Below, in pieces: positions 6,654 through 26,266 of a stretch of 64,000 bases of DNA (the first letter of the stretch is position 1; each line of letters begins with the position of its first letter). A program made the translations under genes and the position numbers. This stretch comes from Bryobacterales bacterium. GTDB lineage: Bacteria > Acidobacteriota > Terriglobia > Bryobacterales > UBA6623. The notes under the pieces were generated by a model. It saw only the letters and a program-made list of their open reading frames with translations, searched no databases and was not told where the DNA came from. The stretch spans positions 1 to 64,000 of the forward strand of contig JAPPMB010000147.1 in assembly GCA_028819255.1 (NCBI GenBank), written 5' to 3'.

Positions 6654-6939
6654 GAAGCCTCATTGTACGGCCCGTCACTCGCGCATGCCGGGCCGGACCG
6701 GCGCGGCATGCCCCGAAACCAATTCGTAACCGAATTGTCACCAAAGCTTTCCATTCCCGTATCGGGATCGGCATCTTGTCCATCCACGGTGGGGAACAAG
6801 CAGCAATCGTCCCGGCCGTTTCGGCGGGCCGTCGGCGAGCCTCGGATCCTCGCTGCCTGGCAGGCATGCGCGGACGGCAGGCCGTCCAGGAGATGCAGAC
6901 CGTCGAATCGCGCCGGCGCCGGCCCGAAAGGAGGAATCC

Positions 6940-8068
6940 ATGGAACGGAAACTTGCGTACTTCAACCGCCACCCTGGGATCGCCGACAAGTACCTCACGG
7001 GCGTCTCGTTGCACAGTCACACGCAGCTCTCGCAGGAGAATGGCCTTAGTCTCGGGCAGCACCTGACGGCATTCGGTCCGTCAGCGGACCTGGTGAGGAA
7101 AGCCCACGAACGCTGCGGCGGCAAGACGCTGGAAGAGGACCTGTCACGCATGTGGTGGACGCCGCCGCTGGCGCCTAGGCAGGCCCTCGACGTCGAGGCG
7201 CGCCAGATCGAGGACAGGCTGGGCCTGGCTCCCATCGTGTCGCTCTCGGACCACGATTCGATCGATGCGCCGATACAGCTCCAGGCTCTTGGGCGGTACG
7301 GAGCGATCCCGGTCTCTGTGGAGTGGGCGGTCCCGTTCCGCGACACGTACTTCCATGAGGGAATCCACAACCTTCCGTCCTGCAGGGCCGAGGCCGGCAT
7401 GGAGGAGATGGCGCGCTACACCGCAGCTGCCCGGGCTCGCGCGCTCCCCGAGATGATGGCCTCGTTCCATGGTGACCCGGAGTGCCTGATCGTGCTGGAC
7501 CATCCGTTCTGGGATCAGCCCAAGATCGGGGAGGGGCTCCATGAGGCGCGGCTTCTGGAGTTCGTGGACCGGTTGGTTCCGGCCATGGATTCACGCCCTG
7601 GAGATCAACGGACTCCGGGACTGGCGGGAGAACCGGCTCACGATCGCCCTATCCAAGCGCTGTGCCGTGCCCCTGATCTCGGGCGGCGACCGGCACGGAC
7701 GCGAGCCGAACGCCACGCTGAACCTGACCAACGCGACGACTTTCGGCGAAATCGCCCGCGAAGTCCGCCGTGGGCGCAGTCAGGTCGTGCTCATCCCGCA
7801 GTACCGGGGGCCATTGGGCCTGCGGATCATTGAGAACTTCACAGAAATCGTCAGCGAGGCGCCCGACCACGGTCTGGGTTGGACCCACTGGACCCAGCGG
7901 GTCTTCCGGCGCTGCGACGACGGCCACGTCCGGTCGCTGCACACGATGTGCAAGGCCAAGCCCCCGATGACGCTGCGGGCTGTGACCTCGACGTTCCGCA
8001 TGCTCAGCCACCGACGCATCCGGCCGGCGCTGGGGTGGGCCATGCCGCAATCCAGGGAACTGGTGTAG
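6940..8068 (+). pseudogene. PHP-domain metal-dependent phosphoesterase, broken by one frameshift
   Basis: A very strong ribosome site (AAAGGAGG, 5 nt before ATG 6940) leads into a PHP-type protein. Its metal-binding blocks are LHSHTQLS, SLSDHDSID and VLDHPFWDQP. At about 7586 the frame is lost. Removing one A from the CCATGG there restores HALEINGLRDWREN, ISGGDRHGREPN and the rest to the stop at 8068, giving a protein of about 375 residues. PHP enzymes hydrolyse phosphoesters through a three-metal centre. The next gene, a glycosyltransferase, follows 32 nt later and is also frameshifted, so the two looked like an operon. The disruption could be real decay or a base-calling error. Confidence 0.7.
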
Positions 8069-8100
8069 ACACTGCCCGAATCCTGCCCAGACGCCGGGCG

Positions 8101-9299
8101 ATGCCCTCGCATTGCATATCTGCCCGACACCTTCCATGAAGTCAACGGGGTTGCTCGGACAGCGCGCCAGCTGACCGCCTACGCAGTGCGCAGGGGCCTG
8201 CCCTTCCTGTGCATCCGGCCCGGGGCCTCGTACCGGCAGTGGCCGGAGAAGTCCGTCGAGAACATCGAACTGCCGAGGAGCCGCCTGTCGGTCAGGATCG
8301 AGGAGGACCTGTGCCAGGATCTCGCGATACTGCGCCACCTGCGGCGGGTCCGGGAACGCTTTCGCGTCTTTCGGCCGGACGTGGTGCATGTGACGTCGAT
8401 GGGCGACTTCGGGCTGCTCGGTCTGAGGCTCGCGCGCGAGTTCGACCTGCCCGTGGTCATGGCCTGGCACACCAACGTGCACGAGTACGCGGCTTGGAGG
8501 TTCGAGAAGGCGGCGTCTCTCGTCCCTGCCGGAGCAAGGTCGGTGATGGCCGGCGGGATCGAAAGGCTGGCGCTGGCCGTGTCGATCTGGTTCTACCGCA
8601 AGGCGGCTGTGGGCCTGGCTCCCAACTCGGAGCTGGTCGACCTGCTGCGCAGCGGCACGCGGAAACCGGCGTACCTCATGGAGCGAGGGGTCGATACGGT
8701 GCTCTTCGACCCGTCCCGGCGGGAGAGGGGGGCGGGCCGGATCGCGTTCGGCTATGTAGGCCGGCTCAGTACGGAAAAGAACCTGCGGCTGCTCGGGCGG
8801 CTTGAGGACGCCTTGCTTGCGGAAGGGCTCGACGACTTTCGCTTCGAGATCGTGGGGCACGGCTCTGAGCGGGAGTGGCTGCAGGCCAATCTGAGACGGA
8901 CGTGTCTCCGCGGCGTGCTCCACGGCAAGGATCTGGCGCAGGCCTGCGCCAACATGGACACCTTCCTGTTCCCGTCCCGCACGGACACCTACGGCAAACG
9001 TCGTCTGGGAGGCCATGGCGTCCGGCATACCTGTCGTGGTGACGGACGGCGGCGGGCCGAAGTTCATCCTCCGCGACGGCGAGACCGGCTTGGTCAGCCG
9101 CTCAGACGATGCGTTCGTCCGGAACGCAATCGCGCTGTACCGCGACCCCGATAGGCGTGCGCTGATGGGTCGGGCTGCCCGGCTGGCTGCGCTCCGTCAG
9201 TCCTGGGACGCGGTCTTTGACAAGCTCTACTCCGAGGCGTATACCGCAGCTGTCGGGGCGGAGCGCGGAGTTCCCACGACCGCCGCCCGGGCAAATTGA
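8101..9299 (+). pseudogene. GT4-type glycosyltransferase, broken by two frameshifts
   Basis: The reading is a GT-B glycosyltransferase resembling the GT4 family. The N-terminus RIAYLPDTFHEVNGVARTA is in a frame with no ordinary start. Deleting one C after ATG 8101 makes it begin at that ATG. The centre holds the acceptor-domain HTNVHEYA and the donor-domain start FGYVGRLSTEKNL. At about 8994 an extra A in a run of three breaks TDTYG away from NVVWEAMASGIPVVVTDGGG, the conserved E-x7-E region that binds the sugar nucleotide. The repaired protein would be about 398 residues. It sits 32 nt after the PHP-domain gene. Members with this layout usually act in cell-envelope glycolipid or polysaccharide synthesis. 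Confidence 0.7.
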
Positions 9300-22959: not shown

Positions 22960-23931
22960 TCAGGCAAGCGTCCGCGCCGCGTCCTTGGCGAAGTAGGTCA
23001 GGATGAAGTCCGCGCCGGCGCGCTTGATGCACAGCAGGCTTTCGAGCATCGACCGCTCGGGATCCAGCCAGCCGTTGCGGGCCGCAGCCTTGAGCATCGC
23101 GAACTCCCCGCTCACCTGGTAGGCGGCCGCCGGGACGTCAAGCGCCGTCTTGGCGTGGTAGAGAACATCGAGGTACGGCATCGCCGGCTTCACCATGATC
23201 ATGTCGGCGCCCTCCTCGAGGTCCAGCCTGATCTCCTTCATGGCCTCGCGGTGGTTGGCGGGGTCCATCTGGTAGCTCCGGCGGTCGCCGAACTGCGGCG
23301 CGGACTGGGCCGCGTCGCGGAACGGTCCGTAGAACGACGAGGCGTACTTGGCGGCGTAGGAGAGGATCGGCACGCGCTCGAACCCGGCTTGGTCGAGCAC
23401 CGCCCGGATGGCGCCCACCCGGCCGTCCATCATGTCGGAGGGAGCGATGACGTCGGCACCGGCCATCACCTGCGACAGGGCGGTCCTTGCCAGGAGCTCG
23501 ACGCTGGCATCGTTGACGACGTCTCCGTCCTCGACGACCCCGCAGTGTCCGTGGTCCGTGTATTCGCACAGGCAGGTGTCGGCGATGACCAGCAGGCCGG
23601 GCACCTCGCGCTTGAGGGCGCGGATGGCCTCCTGGACGATTCCGCATTCCTCGTAGCCGCCCGTGCCGAGGGCGTCCTTGCGGGGCGGGATTCCGAACAC
23701 GATCACGCCCGGAATGCCAAGACCGGCAACCTCCCGGCATTCCTCGACAAGGCAGTCCACCGAGAGGTTGCAGACGCCCGGCATCGACTCGATGGGAACG
23801 CGCACGCCTTCGCCTGGACAGACGAATAGGGGATAGACAAAGTCGAGAGGGGAGAGACCGGCTTCCCGCACCAGGGAACGGAGTGCCTCGCTGCCGCGCA
23901 GCCTCCTCGGACGATGGACGGGGAAGGCCAC
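22960..23931 (-). CDS. hemB: Delta-aminolevulinic acid dehydratase (porphobilinogen synthase)
   Basis: The enzyme condenses two 5-aminolevulinates to porphobilinogen in heme synthesis. Key parts are the zinc-type cysteine cluster [14 protein letters not shown], the active lysine in [15 protein letters not shown] and the second lysine in [10 protein letters not shown]. The length (323 residues) is usual. Two GTG codons lie at 23937 and 23931. The TAGAAT hexamer (23938-23943) abuts the first, so an mRNA starting 7 nt later would begin at the second. GTG 23931 is therefore chosen, giving [13 protein letters not shown]. dacB follows after 7 nt. Confidence 0.94.
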
Positions 23932-23937
23932 AGCCAC

Positions 23938-23943
23938 ATTCTA
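23938..23943 (-). promoter_or_regulatory. -10 hexamer TAGAAT of hemB
   Basis: TAGAAT directly abuts GTG 23937 and lies 6 nt from GTG 23931. It points to a leaderless hemB mRNA and decides the start codon. Confidence 0.45.
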
Positions 23944-24361
23944 GCGACGCCGTACTGGTTCGCTCCCGCAACGCGGCCGCACCGGTGCCGGCGGGGTAGC
24001 GCATGGCGCCCTGCAGGTCTCCGCGAACGGCCCGACCCCGTCGACGCGCCGGGATACTGCCAATACTGCGGGTCATGAGTGCGGAACCGGCCGGCATCTT
24101 GGCAGCGCGCACTGCTCTGGCGGCCCACAGCCTGCCCTCTGAGGGATGAAGCGGGCGGAACTGGCCGCGATCCGGCGAACCGGGTCGGCGCACTGGAGCG
24201 ACGGCAGGCACACTTGGGGGGGATCAAGGGAGCATGACTGTTCTCCGCCGCGGATTGCGCGGCAAGGAGAAAGCGTCCCCGCTCTGAGCCCGGCCGACCC
24301 CTTGGCTGTAATTCAGCGCCCCAGCGATCGCTTGTAGGGCTTGAGGCCATGCCATGGGAGG
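23944..24361. other. 418-nt gap, nothing recognised
   Basis: The spacer is between divergent-facing 5' and 3' ends of hemB and the Cache protein gene. No gene, RNA or repeat is seen. Confidence 0.4.
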
Positions 24362-26266
24362 CTATTGGGCTCCGTCCCGGTAGTAGCCTGCGCCGATCAG
24401 GGTCGGAAGGCCTTGGATCACGACCCTCTTGATCAGACTCGTCTTGACTTCGGACAGGCCCGAGGCGGGATTGGGTGCCCGATAGTAGACGAACGCCTCC
24501 CCGAAGATTTCGCCGACGCGCACAAAGTCTCGGCCGCCGAACGGATCAGCGCCGTCGGGCCGCAACTCGGAGCCCGTCGCGTTGGACCCGCTGTGGCGGC
24601 CGGCCCCGGTGAACAGGGCGTTGCCGTGCGTGTCAAGGCCGAACAGGTAGATTGAGCCTTCCCGCCATCGCGGATCCGATTCGAGGGTGACGGTACCGAA
24701 GTAGCCCTGCGTCGCGAACGCCGTCGCAGCGCAGCGGACAAGGCTCTGCAGGGTGCTCTCGCTCGGGTCGGCCTCCAGGGAGGCGGCGTTTACGGACTCG
24801 CCGTAGCACGTGCCCGGCCGAGCCGGGTCGTAGATGCCGGCTCCGACGACCGCCCTCTGTCCGTTCCAGTCGATCTCCACGACATAGGTGCTCTTCGGTT
24901 CGGACCGTCCGGTGACGAAGTTCGTGAACGAATAGTGCAGCCAGGCAGACCTTCCGTGGGACATGACGCGGTGAAGCTCGAAGAAGTAGTCGGTGCCGAA
25001 ATTGTCGACGAGGACTCGGTGTCTCCCTTCGTCCTCGGGGGTGGGGGGAAACACGGGCGCGTTGGAGAGTGGCTCCCCGTCAGCCTGCGAGATCAGGTTG
25101 ACAAAGATGTAGTACTGGCCGTGGCGCCAGCGCGGGTCCTCGTGGAACGCACGGTAGGCCTCCTCCTCGCCCTGCTCCTTTACGTACTCCGCCGCACACC
25201 GCACGTACGCTTGGACGTCCCGCCTGTTCCGGATTCCCAGGGCCGTGACCATGTGGTCCTCGCAGGGCGGCTCCACAGCGTCGGTCCGTGAGGCCCGGGG
25301 GTACGCCGCCCCGACGATGAGCGGGACTCCATGCGCGACAGCGCGCTTGAGCACCGCGACCTTGGCCTGGTCCCTCCCGGTGCGCGGGTCCCGGCCCATG
25401 TAGTAGATGACCGCCTCCCCGAAGGTGTCTCCGACACTGACCATGTTTCGGCCGCCAAACTGGTCCATGGGGTCACTCTTGCCGCCCCATTCGTGCAGGG
25501 CCCGGCCGTTCACGCGCACAGGGCTGCCGCTCAGGACCTGGTTGCCCGACAGGTCCATCGCGAAGACGTAGCTCGCCCCGCGACGCCACCGGGGGCTGCT
25601 TTCCAGCTCGCCCTTGGCGGAGAAGCCCTTCTCCTCCACGAGCTGCGCTGCGCAGCGGACGAACTGGTGCAGGGACGCTTCGCTTGGCGCCGTTGCCAGG
25701 GCCGTCGCGTTCACTTCCTCGGCACTGCAGGCGCCAGGGATTTCGGGCGAATAGACTCCGGCCCCGATCACCGCTCGCCGGCTGTCCCACTCGACCTCGA
25801 TGACGAACGAGGCCTTCGGTTCGTTCCGTCCGGTCTGCGGGTTGCGGAAGGAGTAGTACAGCCAGCCGGAATCCACAAGCGACATCAGGCGATTGGTCTC
25901 GTCCGCAAGGTCACCACCTAGGCTGTCAGCCACGGCCGTAACGAAGGTCCCCTCCAACGAGGGGTCAGGCGGGAAGACGATCGTGAGCGGCTGGTCCGCG
26001 GCCTTCCCGATCTCGTCGACGAAGACGTACGTGGGGCCGTGCCTCCAGCGAGCGTCCTCGTGGAATGCCCTGCGCGCCTCCTCTTGACCATGTGTTTCCA
26101 GATAGGCTGCCGCGCAGTGAACGAAGGCCTGTACGTCGCTTGCCGTCTGAACGGCTCGAGCGGAGATCCTGTGCTCGGCGCACAGGGCCTCGCTCGACCC
26201 GTGCGCCGGCGCAAGGAGACACAACAGCAGGGCGGCAGTTGCAGCAAGTGTGACGATCCTCGGCAT
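24362..26266 (-). CDS. Secreted protein of four tandem Cache-like (sCache_2 type) domains
   Basis: The 634-residue protein has a Sec signal (MPRIVTLAATAALLLCLLAPAHG) and four repeats of about 145-155 residues in an A-B-A-B order. A repeats cover about 25-185 and 340-490. They share QAFVHCAAAYL or QAYVRCAAEYV, a WRHG-Y-FV strand, and then GR-EPK-SFVIEVEW with GAGVYxPxxPGxC. B repeats cover about 190-335 and 495-634 and share FVRCAA, RWRxGxxYxF, DPFGGR and VKxxxxKR. The PK..-V-E-W-GAGVY end matches sCache_2 domains, which normally sense small ligands outside the cell in front of a signalling domain. No transmembrane or output domain is present, so this may be a free or cell-surface ligand binder. 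The repeated Cys pairs suggest disulfides. No partner gene is adjacent. Confidence 0.72.
   Translation of the reverse strand: MPRIVTLAATAALLLCLLAPAHGSSEALCAEHRISARAVQTASDVQAFVHCAAAYLETHGQEEARRAFHEDARWRHGPTYVFVDEIGKAADQPLTIVFPPDPSLEGTFVTAVADSLGGDLADETNRLMSLVDSGWLYYSFRNPQTGRNEPKASFVIEVEWDSRRAVIGAGVYSPEIPGACSAEEVNATALATAPSEASLHQFVRCAAQLVEEKGFSAKGELESSPRWRRGASYVFAMDLSGNQVLSGSPVRVNGRALHEWGGKSDPMDQFGGRNMVSVGDTFGEAVIYYMGRDPRTGRDQAKVAVLKRAVAHGVPLIVGAAYPRASRTDAVEPPCEDHMVTALGIRNRRDVQAYVRCAAEYVKEQGEEEAYRAFHEDPRWRHGQYYIFVNLISQADGEPLSNAPVFPPTPEDEGRHRVLVDNFGTDYFFELHRVMSHGRSAWLHYSFTNFVTGRSEPKSTYVVEIDWNGQRAVVGAGIYDPARPGTCYGESVNAASLEADPSESTLQSLVRCAATAFATQGYFGTVTLESDPRWREGSIYLFGLDTHGNALFTGAGRHSGSNATGSELRPDGADPFGGRDFVRVGEIFGEAFVYYRAPNPASGLSEVKTSLIKRVVIQGLPTLIGAGYYRDGAQ

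Follow-up and report, generated by a model that had tools for sequence, protein, structure and literature searches.

Background

Cache domains have been described as the main extracellular sensors of prokaryotes, for which a transmembrane helix is the only route for passing on a signal (PMC4822843). Propionate is held in PscD (5g4y) via Tyr90, His103, Tyr143 and Lys156 (PMC5062169), and both PscD and Adeh_3718 (4k08) are single sCache_2 domains anchored to an MCP signalling part. Transducer-free, soluble Cache proteins nevertheless occur elsewhere, in single and quadruple form. Azospirillum WP_014188966 (154 aa, ‘cache domain-containing protein’) combines a signal peptide with sCache_2 and has neither a transmembrane segment nor an output domain, and its gene is followed directly by those for an ABC substrate-binding protein and a permease. 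Proteins from other Terriglobia (e.g. L217 from genome G446, 582 aa) possess a signal peptide and four sCache domains, again with no transmembrane segment.

The protein considered here is encoded in a 64,000 nucleotide contig segment from a Bryobacterales bacterium (the window, i.e. the whole stretch analysed). It shares its fold (Z 14.4-14.7), a Tyr-Tyr-Lys set and an extracytoplasmic location with PscD and Adeh_3718, but has four domains in tandem, is soluble, has His103 replaced and has gained paired cysteines. The Azospirillum protein differs from it in having one domain rather than four, no A/B alternation and no paired cysteines, while the L217-type proteins are approximately 30% identical to it and form a separate subfamily with one or two copies per genome, in which no fusion to a solute-binding protein (SBP) was seen. 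Because single and four-Cache soluble proteins exist elsewhere, the window protein is a variant and not a new kind, and the suggestion of a new type of binding protein, made in an earlier sequence-only reading, must be narrowed to that extent. What is new in its family is the presence, in a limited number of lineages, of cysteine-bearing AB pairs that have undergone amplification and fusion. We found no description of soluble tandem Cache proteins or Cache-SBP fusions in the open literature, which does not in itself prove that none exists, and the family is apparently undescribed.

Domain layout and predicted fold

The gene and its parts, all on the minus strand, are as follows (CDS from the ORF, Pfam and an AlphaFold2 model; signal peptide from hydropathy and sequence; downstream gap from six-frame reading and tblastn).

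24362..26266, minus: CDS, secreted ABAB tandem Cache protein, 634 aa
26195..26266, minus: signal peptide, approximately residues 1-24
25727..26182, minus: Cache domain A1, residues 29-180; Cys29/Cys51; predicted clamp Tyr80, Tyr138, Lys151
25277..25726, minus: Cache domain B1, residues 181-330; Cys180/Cys205; predicted clamp Tyr233, Tyr289, Lys302
24806..25264, minus: Cache domain A2, residues 335-487; Cys335/Cys357; predicted clamp Tyr386, Tyr445, Lys458
24374..24805, minus: Cache domain B2, residues 488-631; Cys487/Cys512; predicted clamp Tyr540, Tyr595, Lys608
23938..24361, minus: downstream gap, the site where orthologs run on into a Gly-rich linker and SBP_bac_5

Immediately downstream of the gene comes an intact hemB (22960-23937).

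The sequence-only reading had proposed four Cache repeats in A-B-A-B order behind a signal peptide, with no membrane or signalling segment, and both parts of this description are borne out. A1 and A2 are 49% identical and B1 and B2 41%, compared to 23-29% between A and B repeats. Local alignment scores reach 403 for A1-A2 (shuffle maximum 48), 286 for B1-B2 (shuffle maximum 58) and 90-108 for A-B pairs (shuffles at most 49), and since every repeat pair scores far above its shuffled controls the A-B-A-B order is real. Pfam returns dCache_2 (PF08269, 7e-14) and sCache_2 (PF17200, 5e-12), both above the curated cut-off (46.5 and 52 bits versus 25 and 26.5 in the sCache_2/dCache_2 test). An AlphaFold2 model built from 37 input sequences (pLDDT 84.4, pTM 0.86) consists of four alpha/beta Cache units. 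With Foldseek and VIA-align the nearest structures to A1 are 4k08 (Z 14.7; 2.9 A over 125 residues) and 5g4y (Z 14.4), the closest solved relatives by both sequence and fold, while B1 and B2 match other Cache ligand-binding domains at Z of approximately 10. Matches to Cache/PAS chains span model residues 11-146 (A1), 164-300 (B1) and 471-606 (B2), to which 28 is added to obtain protein numbering. By profile and by fold, the protein is a member of the Cache superfamily.

The sole strongly hydrophobic stretch lies near the N terminus (KD19 approximately 2.0), and the highest value after the signal peptide, 1.48, falls within a Cache beta strand. Hydropathy and Pfam thus reveal no membrane segment after the signal peptide and no output domain, and the protein has neither the transmembrane helices nor the cytoplasmic output domain of a Cache-type transmembrane receptor. 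A missed membrane segment was considered and ruled out by hydropathy, both for this protein and across 114 complete family ORFs, in which no transmembrane-like segments were found beyond six marginal scores at the last Cache strand. The signal peptide lacks a canonical lipobox (LLL precedes Cys16).

Predicted ligand pockets and paired cysteines

Pocket positions were placed by aligning the four repeats with 5g4y and 4k08. In every repeat a Tyr, a Tyr and a Lys align on PscD Tyr90, Tyr143 and Lys156. Over the family, these putative clamp positions are Y/Y/K in 98/94/98% of approximately 175 A repeats and in 92/96/94% of approximately 175 B repeats, and are shared by A and B although more than 70% of positions differ between the two repeat types. 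The position of His103 is Phe or Tyr in 91% of A repeats (Phe in both A1 and A2 of the window protein) and has no clear equivalent in B repeats. Three of the four PscD residues for C2/C3-carboxylates are consequently kept in all four domains, and because His103 is replaced in A and lacks a clear equivalent in B, specificity must differ from that of PscD; a PscD-like mode of working is possible, and we do not claim identical specificity. The Tyr/Lys residues could also be partly structural.

The family columns tested for the paired cysteines (29/51, 180/205, 335/357 and 487/512) are 97-100% Cys, and this pairing suggests four disulfides, which would fit an extracytoplasmic protein.

Fusion partners and the window copy

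The closest orthologs of the window protein are approximately 1200 aa long and consist of ABAB, a Gly-rich linker and, as their C-terminal half, SBP_bac_5 (PF00496), a domain that the window protein lacks and that occurs nowhere in its genome. In a tree of 48 ABAB proteins the window protein falls within this Cache4-SBP5 clade (support 100/100), of which it is the exception and in which it has the longest terminal branch (0.46). Since it is nested in a fully supported clade, loss is the simplest reading; the protein most likely derives from a Cache4-SBP_bac_5 fusion that lost its SBP half, a direction suggested by parsimony. The sequence-only reading needs correcting on this point too, the other members of the ortholog clade having SBP_bac_5 behind their fourth Cache domain. 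A leftover SBP half downstream of the gene was also considered and rejected, as six-frame reading of 23938..24361 and tblastn with the SBP half of an ortholog detected no remnant in the window.

The protein is not a family 5 ABC substrate-binding protein, having neither SBP_bac_5 nor a cognate permease. Cache-linked SBP_bac_5 occurs in 9 of the 11 genomes of the genus, alongside two further, Cache-free copies (G002 and G007) and one partial copy near the G004 Cache4-SBP5 fusion. No OppB/OppC-type permease was detected in these 11 genomes by OppC_N or BPD_transp_1_N, both of which were found in 11 of 14 control genomes; general BPD_transp_1 permeases are present in the genus. AB-SBP5 fusions also occur in a second genus (g62), besides other SBP_bac_5 proteins, and AB units are elsewhere fused to SBP_bac_3, Cu/Zn SOD and DUF192. 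Most paralogs of the window protein likewise lack an SBP half and are conserved.

Distribution of the family

Family members are present in all 11 genomes of the genus. The window protein's own genome encodes eight further full-length relatives, as well as partial ones, and two of the eight have two more Cache-like domains ahead of ABAB. Our survey of fetched loci yielded 125 non-redundant ORFs, including 70 AB, 40 ABAB and ten of a six-Cache type with an additional matched repeat in front; many long N-terminal ‘extensions’ were, by eye, merely upstream open frame. Among 396 Acidobacteriota genomes, the AB profile gave strong matches to the protein's own genome and, beyond it, only to four from a single further genus (g62, family f23). 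Of two weaker matches, one was to an MCP and one to a distantly related four-Cache protein. No plasmid relatives were found.

In the genome collection, matches came from MAGs assigned to Bryobacterales or to other Acidobacteriota, plus a single bin with the label Aminicenantes. A sponge origin is suggested by bin names rather than by sample records: the prefixes RHO, COS and APA match Rhopaloeides, Coscinoderma and Aplysina, all sponges studied in PMC8163846. Lineages with such names have approximately ten Cache-family genes per genome. The search for homologues and neighbours produced a large family and its fusions but no conserved neighbourhood, what was shared being only synteny between orthologs and gene families widespread in these genomes.

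Possible functions

Pockets conserved without a membrane or output segment, together with fusion to solute-binding proteins, lead us to propose soluble multi-site capture. The window protein would be secreted, soluble and probably disulfide-stabilised, with four sCache_2-type pockets, each of which may capture a small carboxylate-bearing ligand in the periplasm or outside the cell, so that the whole would serve for capture or carriage at several sites, in the manner of a solute-binding protein and not of a membrane receptor, having arisen when a Cache4-SBP_bac_5 fusion lost its SBP half. We give this combined reading an even chance. Of the roles raised by the sequence-only reading, that of ligand carrier or binding protein is the best supported, through the pocket residues and SBP fusions of close relatives, from which we infer binding. 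The family's fusion partners (SBP_bac_5, SBP_bac_3, Cu/Zn SOD and DUF192) are all soluble proteins of extracytoplasmic type, which favours capture, as does the placing of the Azospirillum single-Cache gene just ahead of ABC substrate-binding and permease genes. The lack of conserved neighbours or a cognate transporter counts against it and leaves no clue to the destination of a captured ligand.

A module for general attachment or targeting would account for the SOD and DUF192 fusions just as well as one for capture. Carbohydrate-binding modules tether proteins to polymers, and by analogy Cache pairs might tether themselves and their fused cargo to the envelope or a host matrix. With cargo this diverse and unrelated and no transporter linked, this is the main rival, and copies of 2, 4 or 6 Cache domains and the amplification to some ten genes per genome where MAG names are of sponge type are in keeping with it. 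However, a pure tether has no need of pocket residues that are almost invariant in every repeat, and we know of no polymer-binding Cache domain; we consider tethering doubtful, at perhaps one chance in four. Less probable still is a soluble sensor partner, which, once loaded with ligand, would dock on a chemoreceptor or membrane kinase in the way that LuxP and ChvE engage their receptors. Cache domains are sensor modules (PMC4822843), and stimulation of transmembrane receptors by SBPs is documented (PMC9602780), but no conserved receptor gene lies nearby, and all sCache_2/dCache_2 matches in the genome belong to the soluble family, leaving no membrane Cache receptor of that type.

The long terminal branch and the lost SBP half could alternatively mark a decaying remnant of the fusion with no present function. 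Against this, the frame is intact, all eight repeat cysteines and all twelve clamp residues are retained, and paralogs that lack the SBP half are mostly conserved. Moreover, pairwise comparison with an ortholog (dN 0.29, dS 1.03, dN/dS approximately 0.28, averaging both lineages) points to purifying selection on the gene. We therefore regard decay as very improbable.

Returning to capture, a broader and more tentative proposal, to which we give roughly a one in three chance, is that in sponge-symbiont Acidobacteriota Cache domains gave up their role as membrane sensors and became a soluble, mobile module for capture, with AB pairs multiplying and joining transporter-less SBPs and enzymes to form an undescribed class of secreted multi-ligand proteins handling host or community metabolites. 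If true, a family that keeps the ligand pocket, drops membrane and output parts and fuses to binding proteins and enzymes would represent a second use of the Cache fold, and would provide a molecular trait that can be tested in uncultured sponge-associated Acidobacteriota.

Other loci

Several further arrangements were observed. The G005 locus has its Cache4 and SBP5 halves out of frame with each other (L068:4822-6909 and 6800-8833, minus strand), reflecting a split gene or a sequence error, with an additional unmatched segment of approximately 100 aa ahead of the SBP domain. A degraded-looking hemB copy adjoins the Cache4-SBP5 fusion of G003 (L067:4018-4491, minus). A Cu/Zn superoxide dismutase domain (Sod_Cu, 3e-30) is joined to an AB pair at L185:6010-7437 (plus), and DUF192 to another at L084:7982-9361 (minus) in G008, of the same genus. 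A conserved N-terminal domain of approximately 215 aa, with no Pfam match and an AlphaFold2 pLDDT of 37, precedes the AB pair at L177, L157 and L192, and a fragment of it occurs in the window protein's own genome (L048). At L086:6988-8469 (minus), the last 142 aa form an Ig-like-looking tail after the AB pair, with a Gly/Glu-rich end and no Pfam match. The Azospirillum PQQ alcohol dehydrogenase clusters L233 and L235 hold a gene for a secreted single-Cache protein between pedF-type cytochrome and ABC substrate-binding genes. Finally, L069 and L071 (G014) carry four to five AB Cache genes in tandem arrays, a sign of local duplication.
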